NCBI GenBank assembly: GCA_902595125.1
Contig: CACJOY010000001.1
Span: forward strand, 62,001 to 126,000
Direction: 5' to 3'
DNA length: 64,000 nucleotides
Origin: an uncultured Pelagibacteraceae bacterium
GTDB lineage: Bacteria; Pseudomonadota; Alphaproteobacteria; Pelagibacterales; Pelagibacteraceae
Positions 46,018-53,577 of the stretch are shown one piece after another. Made by a program: the position numbers and the translations under genes. The notes beneath the pieces are model-generated. The model did no database searches. It worked only from the letters and a program-made list of their open reading frames with translations, and was not told the DNA's origin. Position 1 is the first letter of the stretch; the number at the start of each line of letters is the position of its first letter.

Positions 46018-46520
46018 TACATCAAATATCTGTTTAAAACCATGAAACAAATTAAAGATAAAACAACGTAAAATCCAGCACAAATATCGTCCATGATTAC
46101 ACCAAAACTATTTTTGAAATTTTTATCAAAAAAATTCACAGGAAATGGTTTTACTATGTCGAAAAACCTAAATAATATAAAACAAACACCATAAAAAATA
46201 ATAGCTTCATCGGGTGACTTTTCTGTACTGTGTGAGATTTCATATAAATATATTGGTATTGATTGACCAATTAATTCATCAATAACAACTTCTTTCGGAT
46301 CTTTATTTTTTTTATCTTTTATATGTGCTGATACTGCAAAAAAAGAAAAAACAAAAATAATCATTAATCCTATTAATATTAAATTCGATGATAAATCTAA
46401 AATATGAAAGAAAATATAAAGTATAATTACTGTAGCTAAAGATCCAAAGGTGCCAGGAATCTTTGGAATCTTTCCTAAACCAAACATAGTTACAAACAAA
46501 GCAATTATATTTTTATTCAT
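46017..46520 (-). CDS. pgpA: Phosphatidylglycerophosphatase A
   Basis: PgpA dephosphorylates phosphatidylglycerophosphate to phosphatidylglycerol in the inner membrane, downstream of CdsA. The 167-residue protein has the family start GLGKIPKIPGTFGSLAT, an acidic metal-binding block VVIDELIGQ and a C-terminal DDICAGFY, with about four membrane helices. It overlaps ispDF by 8 bp and pncC by one base. Confidence 0.93.
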   Translation of the reverse strand: MNKNIIALFVTMFGLGKIPKIPGTFGSLATVIILYIFFHILDLSSNLILIGLMIIFVFSFFAVSAHIKDKKNKDPKEVVIDELIGQSIPIYLYEISHSTEKSPDEAIIFYGVCFILFRFFDIVKPFPVNFFDKNFKNSFGVIMDDICAGFYVVLSLICFMVLNRYLM

Positions 46521-47619
46521 ATTTTGTAATTGAGATTATAACTTCACAAGCAATAGCTTTTTCCTGTCCTATTAATCCTAATTTTTCAACTGTTTTACCT
46601 TTTAGATTAATCTTATTTTTATCTAAATTCATTATTTGAGATATTGAGTTAATTATCTTATTTCTATATTTTGATACTTTAGGTTGTTGACAGATTAAAT
46701 TTATATCTAAATTATTTATGAAATAATTTGATTTAACCAGATTATCAGTAATAGGTTTTAATATTTTTGGTGATCTTATATTCTTAAATTTTTTTATATT
46801 AGGAAAGAAGGTTCCAATATCTTTTTTTTTCATAGCTCCTAAAATGGAATCAGTTATAGCATGTAAAATGACATCACCATCCGAGTGACCTTGCAATCCT
46901 GAATGAAAAGGTATTCTACTTCCACCAAGATAAAGCTTTTTATTTCTTACTAATTTATGAATATCAAAACCTAATCCATAATAAGTTTTAGCATCTTGCA
47001 AATCTTCCAAAAAGGTAATCTTATTATTGGTATTTTCACCAGGTATAAATTTTATCTTATAATTTTGATTAAGAAAAAGAGAGGCTTCATCGCTTACTTT
47101 TAACTTTTCTTTTACTGAAATATTATACAATTCATTATATCTGAAAGCTTGTGGAGTTTGTGTTAGTATCAAATTTTCTTTATTTAAATTCACAACTTTG
47201 TTTTTAATTTTATATTTTGCAGAGTCCTTTGAATATACGATTGGAACTACTGCTTTATTTTTTTTAAGGCTTTTTGAAATATTTTTGAGTAATCTTATTG
47301 AAAAATTTGGTCTCGCAGCGTCATGTATATAGACATTTTTGGGTCTATACTTTTTAAGATATTTTAGAGCTTTTAATGATGAGTCCGATCTTTCTTTACC
47401 ACCTTTAATAAAGCTTATAAATTTTGAATATTTCTTTTTTTTCAAAAATTTTAAATCATTTGTTACAACAATTATTTTTTTAAAAAGTCTTGAATTTAAT
47501 GATTTTTCTATTGAATGTTCTATAATTTCTTTATTTTTATAAATATGAAATTGTTTAGCAATATTGGCTTTAAATCTCTTACTTTTTCCTGCAGCCAATA
47601 TTACAAAATAGTTGTTCAT
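46513..47619 (-). CDS. ispDF: Bifunctional IspDF (MEP cytidylyltransferase / MEcPP synthase)
   Basis: A 368-residue fusion. Residues 1 to about 205 are IspD (FVILAAGKSKRFKANIAKQF, NVYIHDAARPNFS, LTQTPQAFRY). About 212 to 368 are IspF (GLGFDIHKLV, GHSDGDVILHAITDSILGA, LIGQEKAIACEVII). The two activities are non-consecutive steps of the MEP pathway, separated by IspE. The fusion is characteristic of alphaproteobacteria. It is divergent from ntrY across 26 bp. Confidence 0.96.
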   Translation of the reverse strand: MNNYFVILAAGKSKRFKANIAKQFHIYKNKEIIEHSIEKSLNSRLFKKIIVVTNDLKFLKKKKYSKFISFIKGGKERSDSSLKALKYLKKYRPKNVYIHDAARPNFSIRLLKNISKSLKKNKAVVPIVYSKDSAKYKIKNKVVNLNKENLILTQTPQAFRYNELYNISVKEKLKVSDEASLFLNQNYKIKFIPGENTNNKITFLEDLQDAKTYYGLGFDIHKLVRNKKLYLGGSRIPFHSGLQGHSDGDVILHAITDSILGAMKKKDIGTFFPNIKKFKNIRSPKILKPITDNLVKSNYFINNLDINLICQQPKVSKYRNKIINSISQIMNLDKNKINLKGKTVEKLGLIGQEKAIACEVIISITKYE

Positions 47620-47631
47620 TTGTTTAAATGC

Positions 47632-47637
47632 TATAAT
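47632..47637 (+). promoter_or_regulatory. Candidate -10 element for ntrY
   Basis: A perfect TATAAT sits 8 nt upstream of the ntrY ATG (47646) in the 26-bp gap to the divergent ispDF. The -35 region would fall inside ispDF and is poor (TTGTTC at 47612 gives only a 14-bp spacer). A transcript from here would be leaderless. Confidence 0.35.
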
Positions 47638-47645
47638 TCTAATTT

Positions 47646-49442
47646 ATGTTTGAATTTTTGAAAAAAAATATATTCATCATTATTCTATCTAGTATCACAT
47701 TATTAGTAGGTTTTTTAACCTTTTTAACATTTATTGATAGAAGTTTTATTGAGTTAAATCAAAGCAATTTACAATATTTACTGATATCAAATATTCTTCT
47801 ACTTTTTTTATTATTTGTATTTATTTTTTTAGAAATAAAAAGATCAATTAAAAATGATATTGATAAAGATGGCCTAAAATCAAATAAAAAATATATTACA
47901 TATTTTTCATTATTTACGTTAATACCTTCGATTTTGATTTCTGTTTTTTCTCTATTTCTGTTTTCATTCGCTCTAGAAAAGTATTTTGATAAAAAAGTGA
48001 CAACGGTAGTAAATAATTCTTACGAACTAGCAAAAAGTTACGTTGAAGAGGTAAGAAATAAAATTGAAGCCGACATAGTTTTAATTGCATTTGACACTAA
48101 TAAAAGTGCTAATTTTTTGAATGATAAAACAAATGAGTATATTAGATTTCTAAGAACACAAAAACTTATAAGAGATGTGGATGAAATTCACATAATAGAT
48201 AAGAATAAAAATCTTCTTCATTCTTCTGAAAATAACACCTATAAACCTCCAGTAGATAAAGCATTAAATCTTGTTTTAGATGATGATCGGCCTCTTAAAA
48301 TTATTAATGCATCAGAAAATATATCTGCTGCAATTATGAGACTACAATCATTTGAAAATAGATTTATTTATGTGGTTAAATATCTAGATAAAGATATATC
48401 TAATTATTTAACAGAGTCTCAAGAAGCAATTAATTTTTATTATAATGTTGAGGAAAAAAGTACAGGAATTAAGATTTCATTTGCTATTATATATCTAATA
48501 ATAGTTACTTTATTATTATTCATTTCAATTACTATTGCTATTAGATTTTCTTCAAGATTTTTTAGATCAATAAATAATCTCATTTTAGCATCTACCTCAA
48601 TTGGAGAGGGTGATTTAAATATAAAGGTTCCAGAAATTAAAACTGATAAAGATTTAGAAGTATTGAATAGAAATTTTAATTCAATGATAAGTCGATTGAA
48701 GAATCAACAGGATAAACTTATTATCAATGAAAGACATGAAGCATGGGGGAGTTTAGCTAGAAAGCTTGCTCATGAAATTAAAAATCCTTTAACACCAATG
48801 CAATTAACATTGGATAGAATGAAAAGTAAATACATCAGTCAGATAGATAATAATGATCAAGAAATTTTTAAAAATAACTTGAAGATATTAAACAATCAAA
48901 TTAAACAAATTGAAAATTTAGTTAACGAGTTTTCTGATTTTGCTCGAATGCCAAAACCAATTTTCAAAGATAATAATTTGCTTAGTATTCTAAATGATAA
49001 TATTAAGTTGTTATCTGAAATTGATAATTCAATCAAAATTAGTTTAAAGAAAAATTCTGAAAAAATATTCTTAAATTGTGATAAAGAACAATTATCAAGA
49101 GTTTTTTTTAATTTAATAAAAAATTCGATAGAGAGTATTCAGCAAAAAACTGAAAAAAACCCTAATTTCAATAAAAAAATATTAATTGAAATTTCAATAG
49201 AAAATGACCATATTCATTTCATTTTGGAAGATAATGGAATTGGACTTAATTCTTTTAAAAATTTAAAAGATATACTCAACCCATATTTTACCACAAAAAA
49301 AAATGGAACAGGTCTTGGACTATCAATTGTTAATAAAATTATAAATGATCATAATGGAAAAATTGAATTTATTCCTATCCAAGATGGGGCAAAAATTGAA
49401 ATAAATTTTAATGTAAATGGCAATAGAAATACTAATAGTTGA
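47646..49442 (+). CDS. ntrY: NtrY-like membrane sensor histidine kinase
   Basis: A 598-residue kinase. Predicted membrane helices lie at about 8-28, 42-62, 86-110 and 278-300, with an extracytoplasmic sensor region (about 111-277) between the last two. A HAMP domain (about 300-355) leads to HisKA with phospho-acceptor His376 in LARKLAHEIKNPLTP. The HATPase domain shows N493 in NLIKNSIES, DNGIGL (529-534) and NGTGLGLS (553-560). The PAS domain often found before HisKA in NtrY is not evident. NtrYX controls nitrogen and redox responses in other alphaproteobacteria. It overlaps ntrX by 26 bp; ntrBC, the usual neighbours, are absent. Confidence 0.93.
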   Translation: MFEFLKKNIFIIILSSITLLVGFLTFLTFIDRSFIELNQSNLQYLLISNILLLFLLFVFIFLEIKRSIKNDIDKDGLKSNKKYITYFSLFTLIPSILISVFSLFLFSFALEKYFDKKVTTVVNNSYELAKSYVEEVRNKIEADIVLIAFDTNKSANFLNDKTNEYIRFLRTQKLIRDVDEIHIIDKNKNLLHSSENNTYKPPVDKALNLVLDDDRPLKIINASENISAAIMRLQSFENRFIYVVKYLDKDISNYLTESQEAINFYYNVEEKSTGIKISFAIIYLIIVTLLLFISITIAIRFSSRFFRSINNLILASTSIGEGDLNIKVPEIKTDKDLEVLNRNFNSMISRLKNQQDKLIINERHEAWGSLARKLAHEIKNPLTPMQLTLDRMKSKYISQIDNNDQEIFKNNLKILNNQIKQIENLVNEFSDFARMPKPIFKDNNLLSILNDNIKLLSEIDNSIKISLKKNSEKIFLNCDKEQLSRVFFNLIKNSIESIQQKTEKNPNFNKKILIEISIENDHIHFILEDNGIGLNSFKNLKDILNPYFTTKKNGTGLGLSIVNKIINDHNGKIEFIPIQDGAKIEINFNVNGNRNTNS

Positions 49443-50772
49443 TGATAACACGGATATAAGGAATATTTTAAATGACCTTATTTTAGATGCTGGGTATAAA
49501 ACCAGAGTAGCAGCTAATTATAATCAAGCTTTAAGTGAAATTAATAAAAAAATTCCTGATGTTGCAATACTAGACGTAAAATTAGACAAGGGTGATAATG
49601 ATGGGATTGAACTTTTATCTCATATTAAATCCAAAAATAAAGATGTTCCTGTAATAATGATTTCAGGTCATGCTAATATAGAGATGGCAATTTCATCATT
49701 AAAGCACGGGGCTTTTGAATTTGTAGAAAAACCCTTTGATCAAGCGAGATTATTAAATTTTATTAGTAGAGCAGTAGAAAATTTAAATCTCAAAACACAA
49801 AATAAAGAATATGAAAATAAATTATTTTCTTCATATGACCTGATTGGCGTAAGTAAGAATATATTAAATATCAAAGATCAAATCAAAAAAATATCATTAA
49901 CTGAAAGCAGAGTTATTATTAATGGCCCTTCAGGATCGGGGAAAGAATTAATAGCAAGAAAAATTCATAAAAATTCTAAAAGAAATAAAAAACCATTTAT
50001 TATTATCAATGGAGCTTTGCTTGACTCAAATAAATATGAATTAGAGTTATTTGGTGAAAATAAAGATAATGGATCTATTTCTTATGGAGCTTTAGAAAAA
50101 GCTAATAGAGGAACCTTAATGATTGATCAAGTATCTGAGATCCCATTAAATATACAATCTAAAATTTTGCGTGTCCTCTCTGATCAAAAATTTAAAAGAA
50201 TAAACGGAAATGATGATATTTATGTTGATGTTCGAATTATTTGTTCATCTAGCAAAGATTTAACAAATGAGATTAATTTGGGAAATTTTAGAGAAGATCT
50301 ATATCATAGACTAAATGTTTTTGAAATTAATGTTAAACCACTAAATGAAAGAATTTCAGACATTCCTCTATTAATCAAGTATTTCTCAAAAAAAATTTCT
50401 GAAAGTTATAATCTTACTGAATTGAATATAGATGAAAATGACAGCTATATTTTAAATTATAATTGGAAAGGTAATGTTAGAGAATTACGAAATTTAATAG
50501 AAAGAATTGCAATATTGCAGCCTGAAAATAAGGAAAAGGTTTCGCATATAGTTAAAGAATCTCTCAAAAATGATAATCTAACTGAAAAGATTACAGAAAA
50601 TAGCCTATCTGTACCATTAAAAGAGGCTAGAGAAAAATTTGAAAAGGAGTATTTAACTATTCAATTAAAAAAATTTAATGGAAATATATCAAAAACAGCA
50701 AGTTTTGTTGGTATGGAAAGAAGCGCTCTTCACAGAAAGCTTAAGGGCTTAGGTATTAAAGAATTTAATTAA
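49417..50772 (+). CDS. ntrX: NtrX-like response regulator with degenerate AAA+ domain
   Basis: A 451-residue regulator. The receiver domain (1-120) has D9, D10, phospho-acceptor D53 and K105. The AAA+ domain (about 140-365) has Walker A GPSGSGKE (170-177), but the sigma54-contact loop GAFTGA expected after ELFG (209-213) is replaced by ENKDNGSISYGALEKA. Walker B reads MIDQ (235-238) instead of the usual LDE. A Fis-type helix-turn-helix is intact at about 410-447 (NGNISKTASFVGMERSALHRKL). It is thus likely to bind DNA but unlikely to activate sigma54 polymerase. The start overlaps ntrY by 26 bp. Confidence 0.93.
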   Translation: MAIEILIVDDNTDIRNILNDLILDAGYKTRVAANYNQALSEINKKIPDVAILDVKLDKGDNDGIELLSHIKSKNKDVPVIMISGHANIEMAISSLKHGAFEFVEKPFDQARLLNFISRAVENLNLKTQNKEYENKLFSSYDLIGVSKNILNIKDQIKKISLTESRVIINGPSGSGKELIARKIHKNSKRNKKPFIIINGALLDSNKYELELFGENKDNGSISYGALEKANRGTLMIDQVSEIPLNIQSKILRVLSDQKFKRINGNDDIYVDVRIICSSSKDLTNEINLGNFREDLYHRLNVFEINVKPLNERISDIPLLIKYFSKKISESYNLTELNIDENDSYILNYNWKGNVRELRNLIERIAILQPENKEKVSHIVKESLKNDNLTEKITENSLSVPLKEAREKFEKEYLTIQLKKFNGNISKTASFVGMERSALHRKLKGLGIKEFN

Positions 50773-50774
50773 AA

Positions 50775-52166
50775 ATGAATATTATAATTTGTGGAGCTGG
50801 AAGAGTTGGTTTTACTATAGCCAAATTATTAAGTGAACAGGGTCATTCTATTACTGTTATTGATCAATCAAGTGAGGATATTCAAAAAATAAATGACTCT
50901 CTAGATGTTAAGGCAATAGTTGGTAAAGCCACTTATCCTTCTATACTTGAAAAAGCTAACGCTTCAGAAACTGATATGATTATAGCTGTTACAAGAAATG
51001 ATGAGATCAATATGCTTATATGTCAAATTGCATTTTCTATCTTTAATATTACAAAAAAAATTGCAAGAATTAGGTCTCAAGACTATTTGAATCCTAAATT
51101 TACAAGAGTTTACAGTAAGGAGAATTTACCAATTGATGTTATTATTTCCCCAGAAATAGAAATCGCTAAATCAATACAAAGAAAATTAGAAGCCCCAGGA
51201 GCCTTAGATAGTGTTCCTTTTGCAGATAATAAAATTAGACTTTTAGAGATTCTTATCAAAAAGGATTGTAAATCAATTAATATTAAATTTAATGAATTAA
51301 CTAAAAAATATCCAAAACTTGAAGCAAATGTTATTGGTATCAATAGAGAAGATAATTTTTTTATTCCAAAAAAAACTGACTCAGTTAAACAAGATGATAA
51401 GATTTATATAATTATAAATTCTTCACAGATGGCTGAAACTTTAGAAGCATTTGGTCATGAGGAAAAGATATCGAAAAAAATATTGATAATTGGTGGTGGT
51501 AATATTGGTTATAACCTAGCAAAAAACATCGAAGAAACGCTTGATAGTGTTCGAGTAAAAATTGTTGAAAAAAATAAAGACCGTGCAGAATATTTGGCTA
51601 ATGAGTTAAATAATACGATCGTTATCAATGGAGATGGACTCGATGAAGAAGTCTTGACTGAAGCAAATTTAAATGAAGCTGAAACTGTTTTAGCTCTCAC
51701 TAATGATGATGAAGATAATTTAATGGTAAGTGTTTTAGTTGAAAAATTTGCAAAAGATCTAAAAGAAATTGATGACAAGAGAACTATGGCTTTAATAAAT
51801 AAACCAAATTATTCTTTGCTTCAATCGTCATTAAAGATTGATGATTTAATTGATCCAAGAATGAATACCGTTTCAAGTATTTTGAAACACGTGCATAAAG
51901 GGACTATTGAGAATGCTTATACAATTTCTAATGGTGAATATGAAGTAATTGAAGCGGAGATTATAGAAACATCAGAACTGATCAATAAAGAATTAAAAAA
52001 TTCTAATCTTCCAGAAGAAATTAGAATAGGAGCTATATTAAGAGACAAGAAAGTAATAATACCAAGTTCAAATTTTATCTTTAAAAAAGATGATAGTGTT
52101 GTTTTTTTAGCTAAAAAAGATTCTATTTCATTTGTTGAAAACATTTTTAGATTAAGTTCAGTTTAA
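50775..52166 (+). CDS. trkA: Trk potassium uptake regulator TrkA
   Basis: A peripheral NAD(H)-binding gating protein, 463 residues, with two tandem RCK units. The nucleotide-binding motifs are IICGAGRVGFTIAKLL (4-19) and ILIIGGGNIGYNLAKN (about 236-251), each followed by a TrkA_C domain. It starts 2 bp after ntrX, an association common in alphaproteobacteria, and lies 4 bp ahead of the channel gene trkH. hfq and hflX, which often follow trkA, are not here. Confidence 0.96.
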   Translation: MNIIICGAGRVGFTIAKLLSEQGHSITVIDQSSEDIQKINDSLDVKAIVGKATYPSILEKANASETDMIIAVTRNDEINMLICQIAFSIFNITKKIARIRSQDYLNPKFTRVYSKENLPIDVIISPEIEIAKSIQRKLEAPGALDSVPFADNKIRLLEILIKKDCKSINIKFNELTKKYPKLEANVIGINREDNFFIPKKTDSVKQDDKIYIIINSSQMAETLEAFGHEEKISKKILIIGGGNIGYNLAKNIEETLDSVRVKIVEKNKDRAEYLANELNNTIVINGDGLDEEVLTEANLNEAETVLALTNDDEDNLMVSVLVEKFAKDLKEIDDKRTMALINKPNYSLLQSSLKIDDLIDPRMNTVSSILKHVHKGTIENAYTISNGEYEVIEAEIIETSELINKELKNSNLPEEIRIGAILRDKKVIIPSSNFIFKKDDSVVFLAKKDSISFVENIFRLSSV

Positions 52167-52170
52167 TCAG

Positions 52171-53577
52171 ATGTATGTAATACAATTTAGATATTTAAGT
52201 TTTTTTTTTGGTATAATTTCAATACTCTCTTTTTTTAACATTATTTATTCATATTATCTTAATTTATATTTAAATTTGGATACATATTATTATTGTTTAT
52301 TTGTATCATTTATAATTAGCTTAATATTTTATAAAATTAGAAGATCAGAAAAAAAACCAAATATATACCACAAAATTTTAACAGTATTTTTTGGTTATAT
52401 CTCATTGCCTCTAATTCTTTCTATACCTTATTATTTAAGTATTTATAATTTAACATTTTTAAATTCTTTTTTTGAAGGCATTTCAGGCTTTACTTCAACA
52501 GGTTTTACAATTTTTGAAAATATAAAACATATCGATCAAAGTCTAATATTATGGAGATCTTCCACTCAATGGATTGGGGGACTATATTTTCTATACTCAA
52601 TTATTTTTTTGATAGATATTTATGATCAAAGTTTTAAGAAAACTTTAACGAATTTTTTTTCATTAAATAGTTCTGAAATATTAAAACAAGCTATTAAAAT
52701 ATTTTTATTATATTCCTCATTAACTCTTATAATTTTTTTAATTTTAAATCTATTTTCAATTAGAGCATTTGACTCACTTAACCTTGCTTTTACTCTTATT
52801 TCTTCAGGAGGTTTTCTACCTGTAAATGATTTATCAATCATTATTAAAGAAAATTCTCAAATTATTATTTTATCCTTACTGATGATGTTTTCTTTTTTTA
52901 GTATTTTTTTTTCTTACAATTTAATACTCTTTAAAGACAAAAATTCTAATTTTTTTTATGAAGACTTACACCTTATTATTTATTATATAATTATAATTAC
53001 TTTTTTTTTTCTTTTTTTTAGTTTTAATAACAACTTTTCAAATAATCTATTATCTATATCCAGTAGCATGTCAAATATCGGCTTTACATTAGACTCTGAA
53101 AGAAAAAATTTAACATTTATTTTTTTAATATTAGTAATAATTGGAGGATCTTTTTTTTCAACTAGCTCCGGATTAAGATTTATTAAATTGTACTCATTAT
53201 TTAAATACTCAATAAATCAAATTCTTTCTTTTAGTCGTCCTAAAAATATTTTTATGAACAGATTGATATTTACTAAGATTAATTTTGATTTTGACGAAAT
53301 AAACAAGTATTTTTTAACAATAATAATTTTCATTTTATCACTTTTTATTTTAACATCATTGTTAAGTTTATCTGGAATTGAGTTTGAAAATTCATTTAAA
53401 TTATCTATTTTAACATTAATGAATACAGTTAATTCCTCAATTTATGGTTTAAGTGAGTTTGATTTTAATAATTTACATTTTTTTACTAAATACACTCTTA
53501 TTTTCTTTATGATTGTAGGAAGAATTGAATTGTTAACAATTCTACTTCTTATTAAAAAATTTCTTTTTAAAAATTAA
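52171..53577 (+). CDS. trkH: Trk potassium uptake channel subunit TrkH
   Basis: A 468-residue integral membrane protein with eight to ten hydrophobic segments and four pore-loop filter sequences: SGFTSTGFTIF, LISSGGFLPVND, SNIGFTLDSE and a degenerate last one NSSIYGLSEF. This matches TrkH/KtrB-type K+ channels gated by TrkA. It ends the ntrYX-trkAH run. Strong T-richness in the coding strand reflects the hydrophobic composition. Confidence 0.94.
   Translation: MYVIQFRYLSFFFGIISILSFFNIIYSYYLNLYLNLDTYYYCLFVSFIISLIFYKIRRSEKKPNIYHKILTVFFGYISLPLILSIPYYLSIYNLTFLNSFFEGISGFTSTGFTIFENIKHIDQSLILWRSSTQWIGGLYFLYSIIFLIDIYDQSFKKTLTNFFSLNSSEILKQAIKIFLLYSSLTLIIFLILNLFSIRAFDSLNLAFTLISSGGFLPVNDLSIIIKENSQIIILSLLMMFSFFSIFFSYNLILFKDKNSNFFYEDLHLIIYYIIIITFFFLFFSFNNNFSNNLLSISSSMSNIGFTLDSERKNLTFIFLILVIIGGSFFSTSSGLRFIKLYSLFKYSINQILSFSRPKNIFMNRLIFTKINFDFDEINKYFLTIIIFILSLFILTSLLSLSGIEFENSFKLSILTLMNTVNSSIYGLSEFDFNNLHFFTKYTLIFFMIVGRIELLTILLLIKKFLFKN

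Follow-up and report, generated by a model that had tools for sequence, protein, structure and literature searches.

NtrX proteins without the GAFTGA contact loop of sigma54 activators are already in print, from Caulobacter (PMC10274813) and from Thioalkalivibrio thiocyanoxidans (PMC5744179), and SAR11 bacteria are described as having four (PMC13198564) or five (PMC10592609) two-component systems, one of which includes NtrX. We analysed the ntrX gene in a 64,000-nucleotide stretch, hereafter the window, from the genome of an uncultured SAR11 bacterium (Pelagibacteraceae; contig CACJOY010000001.1). The best solved match of its product, by both sequence and fold, was the full-length homologue Brucella abortus NtrX (5m7n, 5m7o and 5m7p), for which the titles of entries 5m7n and 5m7p indicate crystals with ATP and with ADP. 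The two proteins share a short L1 loop without GAFTGA, Walker A, the receiver Asp and a Fis-type helix-turn-helix (HTH), but Walker B is Asp-Glu in Brucella and Asp-Gln in the window. The GAFTGA half of this picture is known; the change at Walker B is real, fixed in a clade, repeated and apparently under selection. Sequence comparison and analogy with characterised proteins suggest that SAR11 NtrX is probably a response regulator of the sigma70 type with an AAA+ domain that binds ATP without turnover, Gln or Asn having replaced the catalytic Glu within SAR11.

The gene and the motifs of its product are given below, with residue counts from an alignment of NtrX rows in which the 74 rows of the window's genus without the Walker B Glu are termed the Q clade.

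49417-50772, forward strand: ntrX, a response regulator of 451 amino acids (aa) with receiver, AAA+ and Fis-type HTH domains, from profile matches and alignment
49573-49575, forward strand: Asp53, the receiver phospho-acceptor, Asp in all rows covering the position
49924-49947, forward strand: Walker A GPSGSGKE, residues 170-177, with Lys176 in 104/104 genus rows
50008-50010, forward strand: Asn198, aligned with PspF N64, the Walker B partner in the 'glutamate switch', and Asn in 74/74 Q-clade rows (PspF role from PMC4132715, mapping by alignment)
50056-50103, forward strand: L1 segment ENKDNGSISYGALEKA, residues 214-229, without GAFTGA and 4 residues shorter than in NtrC4
50125-50130, forward strand: Walker B Asp237-Gln238, Gln replacing the catalytic Glu, in the motif LMIDQ (residues 234-238)
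50290-50310, forward strand: Arg-finger segment R292-E-D-L-Y-H-R298, with R292, E293, D294 and R298 invariant in 74/74 Q-clade rows
50479-50481, forward strand: Arg355 of sensor II (GNVREL), in 74/74 Q-clade rows
50629-50745, forward strand: Fis-type HTH (HTH_8), residues 405-443, a profile match; among the four regions compared in the Q clade, constraint is strongest at 400-451 (nonsynonymous/synonymous ratio 0.091)

The gene is a single open frame encoding a receiver, a Sigma54_activat AAA+ domain, a lid and the Fis-type HTH. The best NCBIfam model was NtrX (NF051870, 535.2 bits, residues 3-447), with 331.7 bits for the ntrC model. This score is below the NCBI naming cut-off of 600, a curated threshold rather than a biological feature, as were those of seven of the ten other alphaproteobacterial rows scanned (449 to 596 bits; three were above). 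The sequence ELELFG (residues 208-213) directly precedes the L1 segment. In alignment with Aquifex NtrC4 (3dzd), GAFTGA falls on the NtrX L1 loop, from which four residues are missing, and Asp-Glu falls on Asp237-Gln238. The sensor I Thr-Asn of NtrC4 corresponds to Ser-Ser here and is variable across NtrX generally, a hint that hydrolysis may have been relaxed before the Glu was lost. Among 80 named loci in the same alignment, 36 carry GAFTGA, GSFTGA or GAFSGA, all at the L1 loop; the others are alphaproteobacterial NtrX without the motif, other proteins in which it is further changed (e.g. GAFTSA), and a single fragment. Nearly all of the 80 that cover Walker B have DE there.

These two alignments place both motifs at the scored columns, so a GAFTGA or Asp-Glu hidden elsewhere in the domain was rejected. 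An earlier, sequence-only reading of the stretch had described the L1 segment without GAFTGA, Gln238 at Walker B, and an intact Walker A, D53 and Fis-type HTH, all of which the frame, the domain matches and the NtrC4 alignment bear out; an alignment placing a true GAFTGA and Asp-Glu elsewhere was sought and not found, the 36 named loci having the motif at the same loop. A sequencing error or lone variant as the source of Gln238 was rejected, as Gln is clade-wide and common to 71/104 genus rows. So was a decaying pseudogene, given the open frame and purifying selection across the domains. Three features of a sigma54 activator (bacterial enhancer-binding protein, bEBP) are absent here: GAFTGA in L1, Asp-Glu at Walker B, and rpoN in the genome.

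A search for rpoN (PF04552), positive in 4 of 14 control genomes, gave no match in the source genome (1.18 Mb, 97.7% complete, 21 contigs), as the earlier reading had expected; across the order, 247 genomes yielded none above the cut-off. The gene was present in 144/190 genomes of the class. SAR11 sigma factors are described as sigma70 and sigma32 only (PMC13198564). One sub-threshold match, to Sigma54_DBD, was seen in the second family of the order (G021:C2:141677-142015; 19.8 bits against a cut-off of 22.8, within an 874-aa frame) and is probably due to chance. The source genome has a single Sigma54_activat match, namely ntrX.

GAFTGA or near variants occurred in 0/157 NtrX rows of the order (156 of them informative, the loop lying outside the coverage of L061) and in 0/128 alphaproteobacterial rows outside it. 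The latter include 103 rows from rpoN-bearing genomes, all without the motif, which shows that its absence is unrelated to loss of sigma54; a loss of GAFTGA as a consequence of sigma54 loss was rejected on this ground. The absent loop is an ordinary property of alphaproteobacterial NtrX. The earlier statement that GAFTGA was 'lost' therefore holds in that the motif is absent from the protein, but not in the sense of a loss by this protein in particular.

The distribution of the Walker B residues was different. The NtrX alignment comprised 286 rows: the window's own, 5m7n, 156 further rows of the order and 128 rows from other orders. A strong NtrX match was found in 198/247 genomes of the order, of which 157 entered the survey; the remaining 49 genomes gave weak matches (E ~1e-10 to 1e-15), taken as other response regulators. 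Outside the order, 128 of the 148 class genomes with a match of E 1e-80 or better were taken, and three duplicate loci were removed. Walker B in the order was DE in 74 rows, DQ in 69, DN in 9, DH in 2 and EQ in 2, with one row not covered. The second residue in the 104 rows of the window's genus was Q in 71, E in 30, H in 2 and N in 1, giving 74 non-Glu rows. These 104 were fetched from 126; the identity of all 22 unfetched rows is 68-74%, and at that level the fetched rows have Glu without exception, which makes 71/104 an overestimate of the Gln frequency within the genus. All members of the Q clade itself in the search listing were taken. Genera g2, g3 and g4 had N at this residue (8/8), while genera g5 and g6 and the second family had E in all rows covering the site. 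Outside the order, E was found in 118/128 rows, the others being N (4), D (3), H (2) and S (1), and in several of these Walker A is damaged besides; NtrX was the best NCBIfam model for all ten. Among named SAR11 records, which may partly duplicate surveyed genomes (e.g. L291 and G167:C39), DQ occurred in L290-L294 (including Candidatus Pelagibacter ubique SCGC AAA797-I19) and DE in L295-L298 and L320, with L319 not covering the site.

A quick maximum-likelihood tree was built from 113 rows (105 of the order and 8 outgroup) after removal of the two Walker B columns; three fragments were dropped, as were rows more than 93% identical unless DN, DH or EQ. The 35 non-Glu rows of the genus formed one group (support by the Shimodaira-Hasegawa approximate likelihood ratio test, SH-aLRT, 97) with no Glu row within it, and 8 DN rows from three other genera formed a second (SH-aLRT 89). 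All 62 order rows outside both groups have Glu. The least number of changes at the second Walker B residue on this tree was four. On a DNA tree of the genus, E changed to Q once, from GAA to CAA, with no reversion to Glu. The pattern is most simply explained by two independent losses of the Walker B Glu within SAR11. Retention of Glu in 74 of the 156 scorable rows of an order without rpoN indicates that the absence of sigma54 alone does not remove it. No description of Walker B in SAR11 NtrX was found among the literature matches listed, a coverage outside which most subscription journals fall.

More extensive changes were seen in some rows. In genus g2, L037 and L038 (G007 and G001) have Asp for the switch Asn, Asn for the first Glu of ELFG, and Walker B Asp-Asn, on a branch of 1.62; the AAA+ domain of this genus, judged from its sequence, is more altered. 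Six alphaproteobacterial rows (L207, L225, L235, L237, L239 and L240) have an altered Walker A, with the Lys or the preceding glycine replaced, and ATP binding may have been abandoned entirely in some NtrX.

Selection on Gln238 was examined within the Q clade. Seven residues of the ATP site and subunit interface, K176, N198, R292, E293, D294, R298 and R355, were invariant (74/74 rows). Parsimony gave 11 synonymous and 2 nonsynonymous changes at codon 238, against a mean of 7.6 and 4.3 for a two-fold site of NtrX, and departed from a simple neutral expectation with P = 7e-9 to 5e-4 (transition bias 1 to 8). The ratio of nonsynonymous to synonymous change was 0.09 for the HTH, 0.20 for the receiver, 0.285 for the AAA+ core and 0.39 for the lid; the core is thus somewhat less constrained than the receiver, and its value argues against a decaying domain. 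The invariant ATP-site residues and the pattern at codon 238 together suggest that Gln seems to be kept by selection. The invariance of Glu in the genus rows having Glu was rejected as an argument, as these rows were picked by that very residue.

These observations are consistent with the following scheme. The GAFTGA contact loop would already have been gone in the alphaproteobacterial NtrX ancestor, so that ATP hydrolysis would no longer have been required for sigma54 remodelling. Within SAR11, the catalytic Walker B Glu would then have been replaced, by Gln in the clade of the window and, on a separate occasion, by Asn. The PspF mutant E108Q offers an analogy: it has less than 1% ATPase activity, 30-fold tighter ATP binding and constitutive hexamers. 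Irrespective of the nucleotide, its residue 108 keeps the bond to Asn64, as part of a network that takes in Arg162 and Asp164 of the adjacent subunit (PMC4132715). By alignment, the partners of this network in the window's NtrX are Asn198, Arg292 and Asp294. By this analogy, Gln238 would still bond Asn198 as well as the Arg292 of the neighbouring subunit, with ATP tightly held and very slow hydrolysis. For SAR11 NtrX, ATP binding, loss of hydrolysis, the oligomer state and sigma70 promoters are what we infer: the AAA+ domain would serve for ATP binding and subunit contact rather than as a motor, and NtrX would bind DNA at sigma70-type promoters. The sequence-only reading had likewise proposed that the fold is kept for ATP binding or oligomerisation, which gains support from the invariant Walker A Lys, switch Asn and Arg-finger residues where the Glu is gone.

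A further possibility, which we regard as tentative and on balance doubtful, is that NtrX of the Q clade is a natural 'Walker B trap', with the switch pair kept engaged by Gln238, ATP permanently bound and a single assembled state set by phosphorylation alone, at no cost in ATP turnover and with no ATP-driven reset; the second SAR11 lineage would be similar through Asn. If the AAA+ domain were such a fixed ATP-bound scaffold, this would partly answer why such a domain stays well conserved in NtrX-type regulators without sigma54, namely for ATP binding and assembly. To our knowledge, most work on mutation of the Walker B Glu to Gln has used laboratory constructs, and close SAR11 relatives offer natural E, Q and N versions of it.

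Several points weigh against an ATP-holding module preserved through Gln238. On the protein tree, codon 238 has 11 synonymous and 3 nonsynonymous changes, one of them a reversion to Gln; in the Q clade, amino-acid changes are fewer at about 60% of sites than at site 238, where His (2 rows) and Asn (1 row) also occur. From these alignments, the constraint on the site is real but not extreme, amounting to moderate conservation. Brucella NtrX reportedly binds ATP but shows neither ATPase activity nor oligomerisation despite its Asp-Glu, in a 2017 paper; if that is right, Gln may change little, and the SAR11 change would be a further step on a known path. The activity of PspF E108Q requires its GAFTGA loop (PMC4132715), so that its behaviour may not carry over to SAR11 NtrX. 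Caulobacter NtrC, which has no GAFTGA, requires its Walker B Asp235 (PMC10274813), which indicates that a protein can lose GAFTGA and still depend on hydrolysis.

Three other explanations were weighed. Hydrolysis may already have been useless in NtrX, the Glu having drifted under neutral decay and Gln or Asn having no function of their own. The two separate losses in the order, the merely average conservation of site 238, and the 10/128 non-Glu rows elsewhere, some with a damaged Walker A (L207, L225, L237 and L240), are what such decay would produce, and the reported lack of ATPase activity in Brucella NtrX, despite its Asp-Glu, also fits. The excess of synonymous change at codon 238 (P at most 5e-4) and the invariance of the neighbouring ATP-site residues are not, and the losses are unscattered, all 62 order rows outside the two groups keeping Glu; we therefore consider neutral decay rather unlikely.

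It is improbable that a different residue, such as Glu241 in I-D-Q-V-S-E, still supports slow ATP hydrolysis and makes NtrX a weak motor on sigma70 polymerase. Glu241 is nearly invariant in a 13-row alignment (A1), the Arg finger and sensor II are intact, and the need of Caulobacter NtrC for its Walker B Asp without GAFTGA is in keeping with such a motor, but the alignment sets Gln238 at the catalytic position, PspF E108Q has almost no activity, and sensor I is Ser-Ser instead of the Thr-Asn of NtrC4. The third explanation takes up the remark of the sequence-only reading that the altered domain would fit a genome without sigma54, and makes loss of sigma54 the cause of both motif losses. The missing rpoN agrees with this, as does a weak enrichment of non-Glu residues in rpoN-less genomes of other orders (5/25 without rpoN against 5/103 with it; Fisher p = 0.024, not corrected for relatedness). 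The survey contradicts the claim for GAFTGA, which is missing in 103/103 rows from rpoN-bearing genomes, and speaks against it for Walker B, Asp-Glu being kept in 74/156 rows of an rpoN-less order; a common origin in sigma54 loss is very improbable. An AAA+ domain that binds ATP without turnover remains the explanation we prefer.

As expected of NtrX genes, ntrX lies next to ntrY and trkA (NtrY_N kinase, 69 bits; TrkA_N, 168 bits); the surrounding genes are as follows.

47646-49442, forward strand: ntrY, a membrane histidine kinase with NtrY_N, HAMP, HisKA and HATPase_c, overlapping ntrX by 26 nt
50775-52166, forward strand: trkA, a potassium uptake subunit, starting 2 nt past ntrX
52171-53577, forward strand: trkH, a potassium transporter
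46513-47619, reverse strand: fused ispDF (IspD-IspF), divergent from ntrY, with 26 bp separating both start codons

All seven single-contig genomes of the genus had a strong NtrX match. In three draft genomes of the genus (G097, G142 and G177, 90-95% complete), strong matches were lacking for NtrX and NtrY alike; the whole ntrYX locus may be absent from them or lie in assembly gaps. An AlphaFold model of NtrX had a mean pLDDT (predicted local distance difference test) of 78.6 and a pTM (predicted template modelling score) of 0.56. The nearest PDB chains were those of Brucella NtrX, with a whole-chain TM-score of only 0.49 because the domain arrangement is unreliable.

The published NtrX site is CAAN2-5TTG (PMC9223101). 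Two such sites lie just 5′ of ntrY (47559 and 47604), among 139 in the whole window. At 47604-47646, TATAAT stands just 5′ of the ntrY ATG, and a CAAN5TTG palindrome lies near the -35 place, within the start of the divergent ispDF. The region was compared at 30 NtrY loci (the best of 43 matching genomes, 61 searched), of which 27 were readable, one being that of the window's own genome. A site within 100 bp of ntrY occurred in 9/26 readable relatives, and in 8 of these its position matches that in the window. This shared site overlaps the first codons of ispDF, so coding conservation can explain it. Autoregulation of ntrYX through CAAN2-5TTG upstream of ntrY is a candidate suggested by the sequence.

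Beyond Brucella NtrX, three kinds of described protein resemble SAR11 NtrX in part. Vibrio cholerae VpsR (7v2b; 'VspR' in PMC10274813), a non-canonical bEBP, has an NtrC-type fold without GAFTGA and acts at sigma70 promoters with no need of ATP, according to that source; unlike SAR11 NtrX, it binds cyclic di-GMP. The NtrC proteins of Rhodobacter capsulatus and Caulobacter are, like SAR11 NtrX, of NtrC type without GAFTGA, and both act at sigma70 promoters; R. capsulatus NtrC is described as requiring ATP binding rather than hydrolysis (PMC10274813). These two are NtrC rather than NtrX, and their L1 deletions differ from that of SAR11. The laboratory mutant PspF E108Q (4qos and relatives) has the same Glu to Gln change at Walker B, with the switch Asn and the Arg finger present in both proteins. 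PspF, however, has GAFTGA and acts on sigma54, whereas the Gln of SAR11 NtrX is natural and clade-fixed, in a protein with a receiver domain.

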